Notes under the pieces: generated by a model | Databases searched by the model: none | What the model saw: the letters and a program-made list of their open reading frames with translations, nothing else | What the model was told of the DNA's origin: nothing | Position numbers and translations under genes: made by a program | Shown: positions 9,064 through 30,769 of the stretch, in pieces | How the letters are laid out: each line of letters begins with the position of its first letter | Numbering within the stretch: position 1 is the first letter of the stretch | Assembly (NCBI GenBank): GCA_023266575.1 | Contig: JAHFPV010000025.1 | Location: 1 to 35,069, forward strand | Reading direction: 5' to 3' | Source: Sphingobium sp. | Lineage (GTDB): Bacteria; Pseudomonadota; Alphaproteobacteria; Sphingomonadales; Sphingomonadaceae | DNA length: 35,069 nt

Positions 9064-10133
9064 AGCTGGTGGCCGGTCCGGTCGCGCTTGGTGGCGAGAT
9101 AGCGTTCGTTATGCGGGTTGGTCGGCAGGATGATCGGCAGCCGTTCGGCCACGCTGATCCCCGCCGCCTCCAGCCCCGCCACCTTTTGCGGATTATTGGT
9201 CAGCAGCCGCACGCTGCGCACCCCGATCAGGTCCAGCATCCGCGCCGCGACCGAAAAATCGCGCGCGTCGATGGCAAAGCCAAGCCGGACATTGGCGTCC
9301 ACGGTGTCGAAGCCCTGATCCTGCATCGCATAGGCGCGCAATTTGTTGACGAGGCCAATGCCGCGCCCTTCCTGCCGCAGATAGAGCAGCACGCCCCAGG
9401 GTGCGTCGGCGATCTGGTGGAGCGCTTCGTGCAGTTGCGGGCCGCAGTCGCATTTCAGGCTGCCCAGCACATCGCCGGTCAGGCATTCGCTGTGCAGGCG
9501 GACGACGGGGGGTGAGGAGTCCCGCTTCCCGACAATGAGTGCGACATGTTCGCGCGGTTCATCGGGGCTGCGGAAGGCAATGATTTCCGCGCTTTCGCTG
9601 GCCGACACCGGCAGGCTGGCGCGGGAGGCGATGGCAAGGTGGACGGCATCATCATAGGCGTCGATCGCTTCGGCGCTGACATCGACATCCCTGTCGCCCT
9701 CGCCGTCCAGCGCGAAATAGGCGGGAAGGATACCGGCGAGGCGGGCAAGGCGCAGCGCGGCCTTGGCAGCGAGGGGGGCCGTGAGCGCGCGGGCCTGAAA
9801 TGGGCCCTTAAGCGGGGAGGCGAGGTCCAGCACCGGGTCTGAGATGGCGGTCGCCACATCGGCGTCGATCCAGGGCGCGCGGGCGATCAGCACCGGCATG
9901 TCGGGATCAGCCGCGGCGATCTGGTTGGCGAGTTTGAGCGTCTGGCCGCGCGCAGCGGAGATTAATATGTCGGCTTTGCCCGCAGGATCGAAGTCGGCCA
10001 GCGTTACCGCGTCCGCCCCCTCCACCGCCATCAGCCGCAGCGCGCCATCGGCAGCCGACACCCGCACCGCCCAGCCGCGGCGCAGCGCGTCGATCGCCCG
10101 CGCCGCGTCGCGCCCGATCGCTCGCCTGCCCAT
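9060..10133 (-). CDS. ribA: GTP cyclohydrolase II with a degenerate RibB-like N-terminal domain
   Basis: The C-terminal half (about residues 165-357) is a complete GTP cyclohydrolase II: zinc ligands C217, C228 and C230 ([20 protein letters not shown]), [10 protein letters not shown] and the end LLTNNPQKV. It opens GTP in the first step of riboflavin synthesis. The N-terminal 160 residues resemble DHBP synthase in outline ([24 protein letters not shown]) but lack the acidic RibB catalytic motif, so this part is probably inactive. The open frame extends upstream, but the ATG at 10133 overlaps the xth stop by one base and begins the recognisable domain. Gene order is xth-ribA-transpeptidase. 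Confidence 0.9.
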
Positions 10134-20851: not shown

Positions 20852-21273
20852 CTTTCCGCCTGATCGCGCAGCAGCAGGTCGCGGGCAGCGTTGATCTGGG
20901 CCGCCAGTGCCTCCGTCCCGCCCTTGTCGGGATGGACCGACGCGATCAGGCGACGATGGGCAGCGCGGATCATGTCGGCGTCGGCATCGGGCGCCACCCC
21001 CAGCAGGGCGCGGGCCTGCGCAATATCCTGTGGCGGCAAGGGTTTGGGCGCGGCGGTCTTGCCTTTGCCGCGCAGCTTGCCTTGTCCTACGAAGAACATG
21101 GCCGCGCCGATCAACAGCGGCGCACCGATCACCGGCTTGCCCTTGGCCGCCAGCACCGCGCCGACCAGCGCCACGCCCAGCGCCATTCCATCTTTCGCGC
21201 TCATGCGTTGCAGCCTTCCTGTCCAGATCAGCCAGCCCGCAAGGCCCGCCAGCAGCAGCGCAAGCCAGCCCAT
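20848..21273 (-). CDS. Membrane-anchored J-domain protein (DnaJ/Tim14-like)
   Basis: This 141-residue protein has an N-terminal membrane helix (WLALLLAGLAGWLIW), a second hydrophobic segment (about 30-65), a Lys/Pro linker and a C-terminal J domain (about 80-138) with the invariant HPD motif (ASVHPDKGGTEA). J domains stimulate Hsp70 (DnaK) ATPase activity. The layout, with the J domain at the very C-terminus after membrane segments, resembles Tim14/Pam18 and alphaproteobacterial DjlA-like proteins. It overlaps mipZ upstream by one base (TGATG) and the phosphomannomutase gene downstream by four. The client protein is unknown. Confidence 0.85.
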   Translation of the reverse strand: MGWLALLLAGLAGWLIWTGRLQRMSAKDGMALGVALVGAVLAAKGKPVIGAPLLIGAAMFFVGQGKLRGKGKTAAPKPLPPQDIAQARALLGVAPDADADMIRAAHRRLIASVHPDKGGTEALAAQINAARDLLLRDQAER

Positions 21274-22079
21274 CAGGCCGCGCCGATCAAGTCCATGGAG
21301 CCAACGCCGCTGCGTTCGGGGAGCGCAAGGCCCGCCACCATTTCCCGCAACTCCTGCCGCGCGGCGATGTGGCTGACGCCCAGTTCGCCCAGATGCCCCT
21401 TGTCCAGCAGGGTCAGGCCCGACGGGAACAGTTCGCGGAAGATCACGCGCTCCGACAGGCCCGGAATGACGCGGAAACCGACGCGGCGGGACAATTCCAT
21501 CAGCGCGTCGCCGACCCGCTTCTTGTTGCGGGCATCCTGATGCTGGACGCGGTTGCGCAGCACGACCCAGTCGATCGAGACGCCATCGGCCTTGGCCCTG
21601 GTCTTGCGCGCTTCAAAGATGAGTTCGGAATAGAAGGACAGGCGCTTGACCTTGAAACTTTCCGCATCGACCTGCCCGATCAGGTCGAAATCGACGAAAC
21701 TGTCGTTCATCGGCGTGACCAGCGTGTTGGCGCGCGCGGCCATATGGCGGGCGAATACATCATCGCGGCCGGGCGTATCGACGATCAGGAAATCCGTGTC
21801 CTGCGAGACGGCAGCGACTTCGGATTCGAGCGCCTCTATGCTGTCGCCCTTCAACACCGCAAAGGTCGGTGCGACCAGTTCGATACCGCGGCGGCGCGCG
21901 GTTTCGGCGCGATTTTCCAGATAGCGGGTGACGGTGCGCTGGCGCGGATCAAGGTCGATCATGCTGACGCGATGGCCGAGCGCCGTCAGCGCGATCGCGG
22001 TGTGGACAGCAGTGGTCGATTTGCCGGTTCCGCCCTTTTCATTGGCGAATACGATGAGATGCGGCTGCGAATTGGCCAT
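21273..22079 (-). CDS. mipZ: Division-plane positioning ATPase MipZ (ParA family)
   Basis: This 268-residue P-loop ATPase has the deviant Walker A FANEKGGTGKSTTAVH (about 11-26), the switch region MIDLDPRQRTVTRYLENR and Walker B FLIVDTPGRDD. The DLDxRQRT...ENR signature is diagnostic of MipZ rather than of plasmid or chromosomal ParA. In Caulobacter MipZ binds ParB at the origin, forms bipolar gradients and inhibits FtsZ, restricting division to midcell. Here its gene is only about 2.7 kb from the predicted origin. It is first in the mipZ-J-domain-PMM unit and divergent from panC. Confidence 0.88.
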   Translation of the reverse strand: MANSQPHLIVFANEKGGTGKSTTAVHTAIALTALGHRVSMIDLDPRQRTVTRYLENRAETARRRGIELVAPTFAVLKGDSIEALESEVAAVSQDTDFLIVDTPGRDDVFARHMAARANTLVTPMNDSFVDFDLIGQVDAESFKVKRLSFYSELIFEARKTRAKADGVSIDWVVLRNRVQHQDARNKKRVGDALMELSRRVGFRVIPGLSERVIFRELFPSGLTLLDKGHLGELGVSHIAARQELREMVAGLALPERSGVGSMDLIGAA

Positions 22080-23322: not shown

Positions 23323-23763
23323 TTAGAACGGTTTGACGATCACGGCGATGACGATGACCGCGGCGGCCACGCCGGGGACTTCGTTGAACAGGCGCAGCTG
23401 GCGGTCGGTCAGGGTCCGCTGCCCCCTGGCCAGTTTCTTTGCATAGCCCGCAATCCAGCCATGATAGGCCGACAGACCCAGCACGAAGAGCAGTTTCAAG
23501 TGAAACCAGCCAAAGCTCCACGCGCCCAGTTCGACCATCAGCATCAGGCCGAAAATCCAGGTCAACACCAGCGAGGGGTTGAGGATGATCTTGAGCAGCC
23601 GCTTTTCCCGATCGATCCATTTGCGGTCCTCGTCCGATCCGGGCGCGCTTTCCTGATGATAGACGAAGAAGCGCGGCATCATGAACAGGCCCGCCATCAG
23701 GAAGATGACGAAGATGACATGGGCAGCCTTCACCCAGAGATAAGCGGCACCAAGATAGGCCAT
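23323..23763 (-). CDS. hemJ: Protoporphyrinogen IX oxidase HemJ
   Basis: This 146-residue four-helix membrane protein belongs to the HemJ (UPF0093) family. Visible family residues are H15 in WVKAAHVIFVIFLMAG, MPRFFVYH, and K90 in GWFHLKLLFVLGLSAYHGW; a conserved His and Lys are thought to bind haem b. It oxidises protoporphyrinogen IX to protoporphyrin IX in organisms lacking HemG or HemY. It overlaps hemE by one base (TGATG), so two haem-pathway steps are co-expressed next to the origin. Length and hydropathy are typical. Confidence 0.93.
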   Translation of the reverse strand: MAYLGAAYLWVKAAHVIFVIFLMAGLFMMPRFFVYHQESAPGSDEDRKWIDREKRLLKIILNPSLVLTWIFGLMLMVELGAWSFGWFHLKLLFVLGLSAYHGWIAGYAKKLARGQRTLTDRQLRLFNEVPGVAAAVIVIAVIVKPF

Positions 23764-24818
23764 CAGACATGCTTTCCGTTACGGACATAGGCGATCAGCG
23801 CCTCGACATGCGCGATGGGCGTGTCGGGGAGGATGCCATGGCCCAGATTCATGATGTGGGGTCGGTCGGCAAAGGCGGCGCGGATATTGTCCACCGCCTG
23901 TTCGACCGCCTGCCCGCCCGCGATCAGTGCCAGCGGATCGAGATTACCCTGCACCGGCAGGCCCTGGGGCAGGACGCGGTTGGCCCAGTGGGGATCGACC
24001 GTTTCATCTACGCCGATTGCATCGACCCCGGTGCCAGCGGCATAATCGGCCAGTTTCGCGCCCGCGCCCTTGGGGAAGCCGATGATCGGGATAGTGGGAT
24101 GGAGCGCCTTCAACTTGCGCACGATCGCGGCATTGGGCTGGACCACCCAGCGGTCGAACTGGAGCGGGGCGAGGCTGCCGGCCCAGCTGTCGAACAGTTG
24201 GATCGCCTCGACACCAGCCGCGATCTGGCCCGACAGGTAAGTGACGGTCGCATCGACAATGGCGTCGATCAGTGCGCTAAAGCGGACAGGATCGCCATAG
24301 GCGAGGCGACGGGCCGCGCCCTGATCCTTGCTGCCCTGCCCAGCCACCATATAGGTGGCGATGGTCCAGGGGCTGCCTGCAAAGCCAAGGAAGGTGACTG
24401 ACGGGTCGAGCGCGGCCTTGACCTGCCTGACCGTCTCATAGACCGCCTCAAAGCGGTTAAAGTCGGGTTTGAGAGTGCTGATATCGGTTTCGGCAAGGAT
24501 GGGAGCAAGCCGCGGACCTTCGCCCGCCTCGAACCATAAATCCTGTCCCATCGCATAGGGGACGATCAATATGTCGGAAAAGAGGATCGCGCCATCAAAG
24601 CCGAAGCGGCGCAAGGGCTGGAGCGTGACCTCGGCAGCGGCTTCGCTGTCATAGACAAGTTCGAGGAAGCCGCCCTTGTCCGCCCGCAATGCGCGATATT
24701 CGGGCAGATAGCGCCCGGCCTGGCGCATGAGCCACATCGGCGGCACGGCGGGGCGATCGCCCTGGAGGACGCCAAGCAGAGGCTTGGTAGCAAGGACCGT
24801 CGGCGCGTCGAGGCTCAT
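23763..24818 (-). CDS. hemE: Uroporphyrinogen decarboxylase HemE
   Basis: This 351-residue enzyme decarboxylates uroporphyrinogen III to coproporphyrinogen III in haem synthesis. It has the N-terminal signature PPMWLMRQAGRYLPEYRA, the active-site FSDILIVPYAMGQ, the second signature GFAGSPWTIATYMVAG and the C-terminal NLGHGILPDTP. In Caulobacter and Rickettsia hemE borders the chromosomal origin, and its promoter lies within it; here too the upstream region holds the origin features. The ATG at 24818 is only about ten bases from a CtrA-type site, suggesting cell-cycle control. Confidence 0.96.
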   Translation of the reverse strand: MSLDAPTVLATKPLLGVLQGDRPAVPPMWLMRQAGRYLPEYRALRADKGGFLELVYDSEAAAEVTLQPLRRFGFDGAILFSDILIVPYAMGQDLWFEAGEGPRLAPILAETDISTLKPDFNRFEAVYETVRQVKAALDPSVTFLGFAGSPWTIATYMVAGQGSKDQGAARRLAYGDPVRFSALIDAIVDATVTYLSGQIAAGVEAIQLFDSWAGSLAPLQFDRWVVQPNAAIVRKLKALHPTIPIIGFPKGAGAKLADYAAGTGVDAIGVDETVDPHWANRVLPQGLPVQGNLDPLALIAGGQAVEQAVDNIRAAFADRPHIMNLGHGILPDTPIAHVEALIAYVRNGKHV

Positions 24819-24828
24819 CTATTCTCTC

Positions 24829-24843
24829 TTAATATAGATTTAA
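24829..24843. promoter_or_regulatory. CtrA-type binding site TTAA-N7-TTAA
   Basis: The sequence TTAATATAGATTTAA is a perfect match to the full CtrA recognition pattern (TTAA, seven bases, TTAA). It lies about ten bases upstream of the hemE start and inside the most AT-rich part of the origin. In Caulobacter CtrA binds such sites to block initiation and control the hemE promoter. Whether CtrA does the same here is inference; in sphingomonads its role is less well known. Confidence 0.7.
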
Positions 24844-24963
24844 GTAGGATGATGGAGATAGTAGGGACGTTGGCAGCGGGGTTTATGCGCTGTGCCCGGA
24901 TTTGCCAACAGCTTGACTCCCTTAGCTTACGCTTTGCGGCCTGAGTCAGTCATTCTATCCCCG

Positions 24964-25084
24964 TTATCCACAGGCTGTGGATGAAAAACCGGGTCTGTTG
25001 GGGGGCTGTGGATAAGATTTGCGGTGTCGTGGACAGACGGAAAGCCGGGATTTTGTCCCCAACTCCTCCCTTGCTTTATCCACA
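24964..25084. promoter_or_regulatory. Cluster of four DnaA boxes
   Basis: Three perfect DnaA boxes are present: TTATCCACA at 24964-24972 (plus), TGTGGATAA at 25007-25015 (minus) and TTATCCACA at 25076-25084 (plus). A fourth, TGTGGATGA at 24976-24984 (minus), has one mismatch. The first two form a near-perfect inverted pair three bases apart (TCCACAG-G-CTGTGGA). Spacing and alternating orientation are typical of an origin. Confidence 0.88.
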
Positions 25085-25107
25085 GCCTGCCCACACAGAT
25101 AGGGGCC

Positions 25108-25935
25108 ATGTCGCGCATCCACCTGCACCTCCTGTCGGACTCCACCGGTGAAACGCTGGAGAATATCGCCAAGGCCGCGATCGGCCTGTTCGAAAATGTC
25201 GAGGCGATCCGCCATTTCTGGCCGATGGTGCGATCCGAAGTCCATCTCGACCGGATCATGCAGGAAATCGCCGCCAATCCGGGGCTGGTGCTGTTCACCC
25301 TGACCAACCATGTGTTGCGGCGGCGGCTGGAAACCCGCTGCCGGGCGCTGGGCCTGCCCCATGTCGCCGCGCTCGACAGTGTAGCCGACGCGCTGTCCAA
25401 CATATTGGGGCAGGAAACCCGGACCCGGCCGGGGCGTAAGCATATTCTCGACGAAGCCTATTTCGCCCGGATCGAGGCGATCCAGTTCACCATCGCCCAT
25501 GATGATGGCGTGGGCCATGAAAATTGGGAAGAGGCCGATATCGTGCTGGCGGGCGTGTCGCGCGCGTCCAAGACGCCGACGTCGATCTACCTCGCCAATC
25601 GTGGGTATAAGACCGCCAATATCCCGCTGGTGCCGGAATCGCCGCCGCCAAAAAGCCTCTATAGCCTGAAACATCCGATGATCGTCGGCCTGACCGTCAG
25701 CCCCGACCGGCTGATCCAGATAAGGCGCAACCGGCTGCTCTCGCTCAATCAGGCGCCGGAGACGGCCTATGTCGACAATGAAAAGGTGCAAGAGGAGCTG
25801 GCTTTCGCCCGGCGGATGTTTGCCGATCATGGCTGGCCGGTGATCGACATGACCCGCCGGTCGATTGAGGAAGCCGCCGCGGCGATCATCAACCTGTTCA
25901 ACGACCATGTTCTGGGTGAAGGGGCGGCATCATGA
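25108..25935 (+). CDS. PPDK/PEP synthetase regulatory protein (DUF299 kinase-phosphotransferase)
   Basis: This 275-residue protein has the family N-terminus RIHLHLLSDSTGETLENIAKAA and the P-loop-like motif GVSRASKTPTSIYLANRG. The family (PpsR or PDRP) reversibly inactivates phosphoenolpyruvate synthase or pyruvate,phosphate dikinase by ADP-dependent phosphorylation and phosphate-dependent release, so it sets carbon flow between pyruvate and PEP. Which enzyme is the target here is unknown, so no symbol is given. The frame extends to 25024, but the ATG at 25108 with GGGG before it starts the conserved domain. It is the first gene to the right of the origin; maf overlaps its end by four bases. 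Confidence 0.9.
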   Translation: MSRIHLHLLSDSTGETLENIAKAAIGLFENVEAIRHFWPMVRSEVHLDRIMQEIAANPGLVLFTLTNHVLRRRLETRCRALGLPHVAALDSVADALSNILGQETRTRPGRKHILDEAYFARIEAIQFTIAHDDGVGHENWEEADIVLAGVSRASKTPTSIYLANRGYKTANIPLVPESPPPKSLYSLKHPMIVGLTVSPDRLIQIRRNRLLSLNQAPETAYVDNEKVQEELAFARRMFADHGWPVIDMTRRSIEEAAAAIINLFNDHVLGEGAAS

Positions 25936-29969: not shown

Positions 29970-30426
29970 GACAGGCGCGCCCGCCAGCGGCGAGGCCGCG
30001 CATTTCCGTGCGCTGGAAAATCTCTATCGCTCCGCGCCGATCAACCGGCTGTTCCGATCGGAGATTGCGATTCAGGAGCCGGGCCGCTGCGTCATCGATT
30101 TCGATGTGGATGAAAGCCAGTTCCACGCCGCCGGTGCCGTCCATGGCACCGTCTATTTCAAGATGCTGGACGATGCGGCCTTTTATGCGGCCAACAGCCT
30201 GGTCAGCGACCGATTCCTGCTGACCACCGCCTTCAACCTGCTGTTCACCCGGCCGATCGCGCCGGGCCGGATTCGCGCCGAGGGGCGCTGGATCAGCGGC
30301 AAGCGCCGCGTTTATGTGGCCGAGGCGAGTCTGGTCGATTCGGACGGCGAGGAAGTCGGGCGCGGCACCGGCACCTTCATGCGGTCGCAATTCCCCCTGT
30401 CATCGCTGCCGGGATATGGTGGCTGA
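29956..30426 (+). CDS. PaaI-family hot-dog thioesterase
   Basis: From the GTG at 29956 the protein is 156 residues. The hot-dog core includes VHGTVYFKMLDDAAFYAANSL, in which the helix following HG carries the catalytic acidic residue, and the strands FLLTTAFNLLFTRPIAPGRIRAEGRW. PaaI-type enzymes hydrolyse acyl-CoA thioesters. No ATG is available in front of the domain; GTG 29956 overlaps ptsN by 14 bases and is the best start. The substrate is unknown. It continues the hpf-ptsN transcription unit and overlaps the DUF1491 gene. Confidence 0.8.
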   Translation: MTLPETGAPASGEAAHFRALENLYRSAPINRLFRSEIAIQEPGRCVIDFDVDESQFHAAGAVHGTVYFKMLDDAAFYAANSLVSDRFLLTTAFNLLFTRPIAPGRIRAEGRWISGKRRVYVAEASLVDSDGEEVGRGTGTFMRSQFPLSSLPGYGG

Positions 30427-30769
30427 GTCGCAGGACAATGCGCGGCTGACCAGTGCGATTCTGGTCAACGCGCTGGTGCGGCGGACCAACGCGGCGGGCG
30501 GCTTTGCCATGGTGCTGGTCAAGGGCGACGCGACCAGCGGCGTCATACTCATACAAGCGCTTGAAAAGGGGAAGGAAACCGGATTGTTCGAACGGGTATC
30601 GAACTTTGCCGGGGGTCATGCGTTGATGCGCTGTGGACCTTCCCCGGAGGATGGGCCGGAGGCGCTTGCCACCTATGTGGCGCGCCGGCGCAGATCGGAC
30701 CCCGATCTGTGGATCGTTGAACTCGATATCCCGGAAGCAGAACGGTTTGCCGCTGAAACGATCTGCTGA
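30416..30769 (+). CDS. DUF1491-family protein
   Basis: This 117-residue protein shows the DUF1491 pattern: RLTSAILVNALVRRTNAAGGFAMVLVKGDATSG, a middle region of charged and aromatic residues, and the near-terminal RRSDPDLWIVELDIPEAERF. The family is small, alphaproteobacterial and of unknown function. Two starts are possible, ATG 30416 and GTG 30419; ATG is taken. It overlaps the thioesterase gene by 11 bases, so the two are probably translated together. No catalytic motif is evident. Confidence 0.8.
   Translation: MVAESQDNARLTSAILVNALVRRTNAAGGFAMVLVKGDATSGVILIQALEKGKETGLFERVSNFAGGHALMRCGPSPEDGPEALATYVARRRRSDPDLWIVELDIPEAERFAAETIC

Follow-up and report, generated by a model that had tools for sequence, protein, structure and literature searches.

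The 289-bp intergenic gap between the divergent hemE and Kinase-PPPase genes (positions 24819-25107) is very probably the chromosomal replication origin (oriC) of this Sphingobium, of the hemE-linked alphaproteobacterial type, and we put the probability of this reading at about 0.93. The reading is based on the gene neighborhood, the sole cluster of DnaA boxes in the genome, the conservation of these boxes within the genus, and the presence of parS-like sites 20-55 kb from the locus in 7 of 7 relatives, and these findings support the original prediction of a likely replication origin at this place. The window, that is, the whole stretch of DNA that was analyzed, is an entire contig (C13) of 35,069 bases from a 3.62-Mb draft genome of 26 contigs.

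In the mechanism proposed here, DnaA would bind to the inverted pair of boxes at 24964 and 24976 and to the single boxes at 25007 and 25076. The resulting DnaA complex would open an AT-rich stretch, most likely the one beside hemE at 24819-24863, and the helicase would then be loaded and bidirectional replication would follow. An IHF-like core may be used in this process, and methylation by CcrM may have an effect at the two GANTC sites of the gap.

Gene neighborhood and DnaA boxes

The hemE gene, which encodes uroporphyrinogen decarboxylase (Pfam URO-D), is located at 23763-24818 on the minus strand with its start at 24818, and the Kinase-PPPase gene (PPDK-regulator family, COG1806-type; referred to below as the regulator gene) is located at 25108-25935 on the plus strand. 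The start of the regulator gene was set at 25108, with an alternative in-frame GTG upstream at 25024; the query protein used in the searches was taken from 25108, where the matches of most relatives begin. The gene order of hemJ-hemE on one side and regulator-maf-aroE-coaE-dnaQ on the other, with a strand switch between them, had been proposed from the sequence alone. The Pfam domains of the neighbors, namely UPF0093 (HemJ), URO-D (HemE), Kinase-PPPase, Maf, shikimate dehydrogenase, CoaE, and a DnaQ-type exonuclease, agree with this order, and hemE and the regulator gene lie on opposite strands. The proposed match to the genes that flank the Caulobacter origin also held, as both hemE and COG1806/Kinase-PPPase were identified with Pfam. 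The gap is 47.8% AT compared to 36.7% for the window, the window and not the genome being the basis of this comparison. A gene for a MipZ-family ATPase (PF09140, E 1.1e-109) is located at 21273-22079 on the minus strand, approximately 2.7 kb from the gap. In Caulobacter, the division site is placed relative to the origins by MipZ.

The motif search recovered the three perfect DnaA boxes and the one-mismatch box of the original prediction. Box 1 (perfect TTATCCACA, 24964-24972, plus strand) and box 2 (one mismatch, TCATCCACA, 24976-24984, minus strand) form the inverted pair that had been described, with three bases between them, and boxes 3 (25007-25015, minus strand) and 4 (25076-25084, plus strand) are again perfect copies of TTATCCACA. 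When up to one mismatch was allowed, the window contained 10 matches, while 100 shuffles of the window gave a mean of 2.31 and a largest count of 7. The genome of 3,619,040 bases has 9 perfect boxes, and three of these nine lie in the gap. At the genome's own rate, the Poisson probability of at least three perfect boxes in such a gap is approximately 6e-11, and the genome holds about 12,500 gap lengths. The looser motif TTWTNCACA had 48 matches in the genome, and nowhere outside the gap did two of them lie within 1 kb. A stronger box cluster at another alphaproteobacterial origin locus had been named as one result that would speak against an origin here; at the sensitivity used, the genome search returned the gap as the only cluster.

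To compare the locus among relatives, three samples were drawn. The genus sample consisted of 59 of 61 genomes, all with different gaps; the gaps of G008 and G011 are cut by a contig end, as seen from the coordinates, and these two genomes were left out. The family sample consisted of 40 loci, one per genus, from 113 non-Sphingobium matches. For the class sample, 40 of the 64 matches outside the family were taken, and the removal of 3 with no hemE match within 1.2 kb left 37. A single alignment included 8 of the 59 genus rows and 38 of the 40 family rows, the two remaining family rows being left out for their long gaps.

Perfect boxes were present in nearly all of the genus gaps, with at least one in 58/59, at least two in 51/59, and at least three in 26/59. 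In the 59 Sphingobium gaps, their recurring positions relative to the regulator start are approximately -143, -100, and -31; box 1 recurs near -143, and box 4 is the one most often perfect in the genus list. The inverted partner, near -131, varies among the Sphingobium loci between a perfect match and one mismatch, and boxes 2 and 3 were covered by the same genus comparison. Beyond the genus, hemE lies upstream of the regulator gene within 1.2 kb in 40/40 family loci (gaps of 260-946 bp) and within 1.2 kb of it in 37/40 class loci, and a perfect box is present in only 12/40 loci of other family genera and 13/37 of the class. The regulator protein had no match at all in 4/119 family genomes and 29/95 class genomes. 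The four family genomes with no Kinase-PPPase regulator match (G080, G081, G132, and G163) are all 2.1-2.3 Mb in size.

The gap resembles the Caulobacter crescentus origin, Cori, in its hemE and COG1806 flanks and its DnaA boxes. Passages of PMC1914354 place the origins of both Caulobacter and Rickettsia between hemE and COG1806, that of Caulobacter by experiment and that of Rickettsia by prediction. The Sphingopyxis origin was predicted at hemE, likewise those of most Sphingomonadaceae in DoriC, in passages of PMC4741004 that cite Brassinga et al. 2001, and the predicted origin of Novosphingobium PP1Y adjoins hemE according to part of PMC4059872. Because hemE origins have already been published for sphingomonads, the gap adds one more of a known type. 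The oriC of Sphingopyxis granuli TFA is also close in description: Ori-Finder predicted it at hemE, together with conserved DnaA boxes and a putative DUE. It is from another genus, and the passages of PMC4741004 examined mention neither GANTC nor IHF at the origin. According to a passage of PMC8116508, proximity of dnaA to the origin is not a conserved feature in the Sphingomonadales.

Chromosome position in relatives

The search for parS-like sites allowed up to one mismatch and covered 7 near-complete relatives of 60, picked for their long contigs. All 16 distinct sites fell between 19.8 and 54.6 kb from the regulator start, none of them on the hemE side, and this held for 7/7 relatives. G030, G022, and G051 are not independent, since their parS spacing is nearly identical. 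In the genome under study, two parS-like sites were found, on contigs C10 and C24, and the contig that forms the window ends 10 kb downstream.

GC skew was sampled as 20 x 20 kb in three relatives, in which 17, 12, and 12 of the 20 samples agreed with an origin at the gap. The GC-skew optimum was 370, 341, and 56 kb from the locus, and 14.6%, 25.1%, and 5.0% of chromosome positions scored the same or better. The sampled skew is thus in loose agreement with an origin at the gap, which is compatible but weak. Within the window, the skew over 5 kb on each side was 0.002 to the left of the gap versus 0.069 to the right, and the cumulative skew minimum of the window is at 9397, outside the gap.

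In each of the three relatives (G051, G050, and G019), skew of the wrong sign was observed at distances from the gap of about 150-180 kb beyond hemE and 190-300 kb beyond the regulator gene. GC content was unusually low, at 0.47 and 0.48, in two sampled stretches about 50-80 kb beyond the regulator gene, G051:C1:1-20000 (L061) and G019:C1:3376001-3396000 (L118), which may represent an island with the same location in both relatives.

The weak GC skew in the three relatives would also suit a reading in which the boxes belong to a promoter region from which DnaA regulates hemE and the regulator gene, with replication initiated at another locus. DnaA doubles as a transcription factor, and both promoters must sit in the gap, as the two genes are divergent. 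Such a promoter region would leave unexplained the nearby parS-like sites in every one of the seven relatives, the absence of a second box cluster from the genome, and the hemE-linked origins of related genera, and we regard it as very improbable.

AT-rich segment, GANTC sites, and IHF-like core

In the origin reading, the segment beside hemE at 24819-24863, which is 71% AT, is the candidate duplex-unwinding element. A DnaA-trio unwinding element in 24845-24865 was considered by eye, and no claim is made for it. Next to the AT-rich segment, the alignment showed an inverted repeat, GTTGGCA/TGCCAAC with a 27-nt spacer (24869-24909). Its right arm, TTGCCAAC, is kept in 58/59 genus gaps, 15/40 family gaps, and 0/37 class gaps, and the left arm is more variable.

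Among the gap motifs counted, GANTC, which is the methylation motif of CcrM, is the most widely shared across the family. The genus gaps contain 290 sites in 17,102 bases (17.0/kb versus 2.0/kb in the flanks; mean of shuffled gaps, 66), the family gaps 203 in 13,015 bases (15.6/kb versus 2.3/kb; shuffle mean, 51), and the class gaps 111 in 17,221 bases (6.45/kb versus 1.7/kb; shuffle mean, 59). At least two GANTC are present in 38/40 family gaps, and the sites are spread across most of the gap in relatives. Of seven permuted motifs, the densest reached 6.3/kb in the genus gaps and 6.0/kb in those of the family. Some permuted motifs also exceeded every shuffle, namely AGNCT and TGNCA in the genus (100 and 108 versus means of 64 and 65) and AGNCT in the family (78 versus a mean of 51), and therefore an effect of kinship is visible, which the shuffle controls leave in. 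Measured against their own chromosomes, the gaps of G051 and G050 have 9 and 7 GANTC compared to maxima of 4 and 6 in 3,940 sampled 300-bp segments each; the gap of G019 has 4, a count that 3 sampled 300-bp segments equal.

Only one or two GANTC occur in 9/59 genus gaps, among them the gap in the window, which has two CcrM-type sites. These are site A (GACTC, 24915-24919) and site B (GAGTC, 24943-24947), and GANTC is found in the corresponding zones in 48/59 and 55/59 genus loci, respectively. The middle base is nearly fixed at both (C in 47/48 for site A and G in 55/62 for site B), so the whole block is conserved there. At the hemE-proximal GANTC of the genus gaps, the middle base is T in 34, G in 8, C in 7, and A in 3, and a varying middle base in a GANTC that stays is what would be expected if the methylation motif itself is kept. 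A sigma-70 promoter reading of TTGACTC, made by eye, was set aside, the expected -10 stretch being poorly conserved in the genus alignment. Elsewhere in the window, a denser GANTC run of seven sites in about 390 bp is located at 30069-30457. Both this run and the genus gaps with only one or two sites weigh against the reading of GANTC as a kept methylation motif.

Overlapping a GANTC site is an IHF-type site with one mismatch and a TCAA-N4-TTR core (24906-24918, minus strand), a consensus match within a highly conserved block. The core is present in 54/59 genus gaps (shuffle, 3.0) and 18/40 family gaps (shuffle, 1.8); in the class, the 4/37 gaps with the core are not a genuine excess over the shuffle value of 3.0. 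Fusion of the core to GANTC is seen in 48/59 genus, 16/40 family, and 0/37 class gaps. The full IHF consensus occurs in only 1/59, 1/40, and 2/37 of these gaps, respectively, and consensus matches in the window with one mismatch allowed number 7 versus 7.79 by chance. The IHF-like core is taken as a lead only, because it is short, was spotted after alignment, and has counts that include kinship.

Possible control of origin firing

A possible role for the GANTC sites is control of sphingomonad origins by CcrM, whereby a conserved GANTC array, with one site fused to an IHF-like core, would become hemimethylated upon firing and prevent refiring until CcrM acts late in the cell cycle; we consider this quite unlikely as matters stand. 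In this reading, the array would be a Dam/SeqA-like device made of different components, it would either supplement or replace the CtrA brake known from Caulobacter, and the Sphingobium of the window would have retained just the two core sites. The E. coli oriC with Dam/SeqA is like the relatives of the window in that its origin is dense in adenine-methyltransferase sites; the sites are GATC for Dam in E. coli and GANTC for CcrM in the relatives, and the window has just two. Excerpts of the literature report several GANTC in the Caulobacter origin and GANTC in the origins of close species, as in the gap of the window. Available portions of other reports describe measured GANTC methylation in Sphingomonas sp. 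AAP5 and an effect of methylation on ori2 of Agrobacterium. Among the matches listed from the open-licence literature, none dealt with GANTC at the origin of a sphingomonad.

Two other explanations of the gap motifs, both compatible with an origin here, bear on this. The GANTC sites and the TTGCCAACAGCTTGACTC block have about an even chance of being GcrA/CcrM promoter elements of both genes and not elements of origin control. The genome encodes a GcrA-family protein and a 376-aa protein with N6_N4_Mtase and RAMA domains, which is the layout of CcrM. In the parts of the literature available, GANTC is described as enriched in alphaproteobacterial intergenic regions and as acting at promoters, and replication control is normal in Caulobacter lacking CcrM. 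Promoter elements would account less well for sites that cover most of the gap, or for a gap density above that of the sampled chromosome in two of the three relatives (G051 and G050, but not G019). The second explanation, an unlikely one, is that the perfect TTAA-N7-TTAA palindrome (24829-24843) functions as a CtrA site through which the origin is repressed, in the manner of Caulobacter. The palindrome is one of 5 such places in 3.62 Mb and had zero occurrences in 100 window shuffles, and CtrA influences replication in Sphingomonas melonis according to passages of PMC8116508. Against this, perfect matches, the only ones counted, were found in just 7/59 genus, 0/40 family, and 5/37 class gaps, this zone, which lies within 45 nt of hemE, contains GANTC in 43/59 genus gaps, and the same passages report that loss of ctrA does not harm the growth of S. 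melonis. Being rare in the gaps of relatives, the palindrome was not taken as a conserved control element, and CtrA control through it was dropped as a main claim; given the S. melonis result, CtrA itself may still play a part. Passages of PMC1914354 describe five CtrA sites in Cori, compared to one poorly conserved palindrome in the window, and the absence of CtrA sites from some predicted hemE-type origins.

With the gap as oriC, the origin of this draft genome is narrowed to a few hundred bases with a layout that can be tested. The part most worth following up is the conserved and unexpectedly dense GANTC array in relatives. Since perfect CtrA sites like those of Caulobacter are missing from most of the gaps examined in sphingomonads, the control of once-per-cycle firing is worth testing in this group, with origin methylation as a concrete candidate mechanism.
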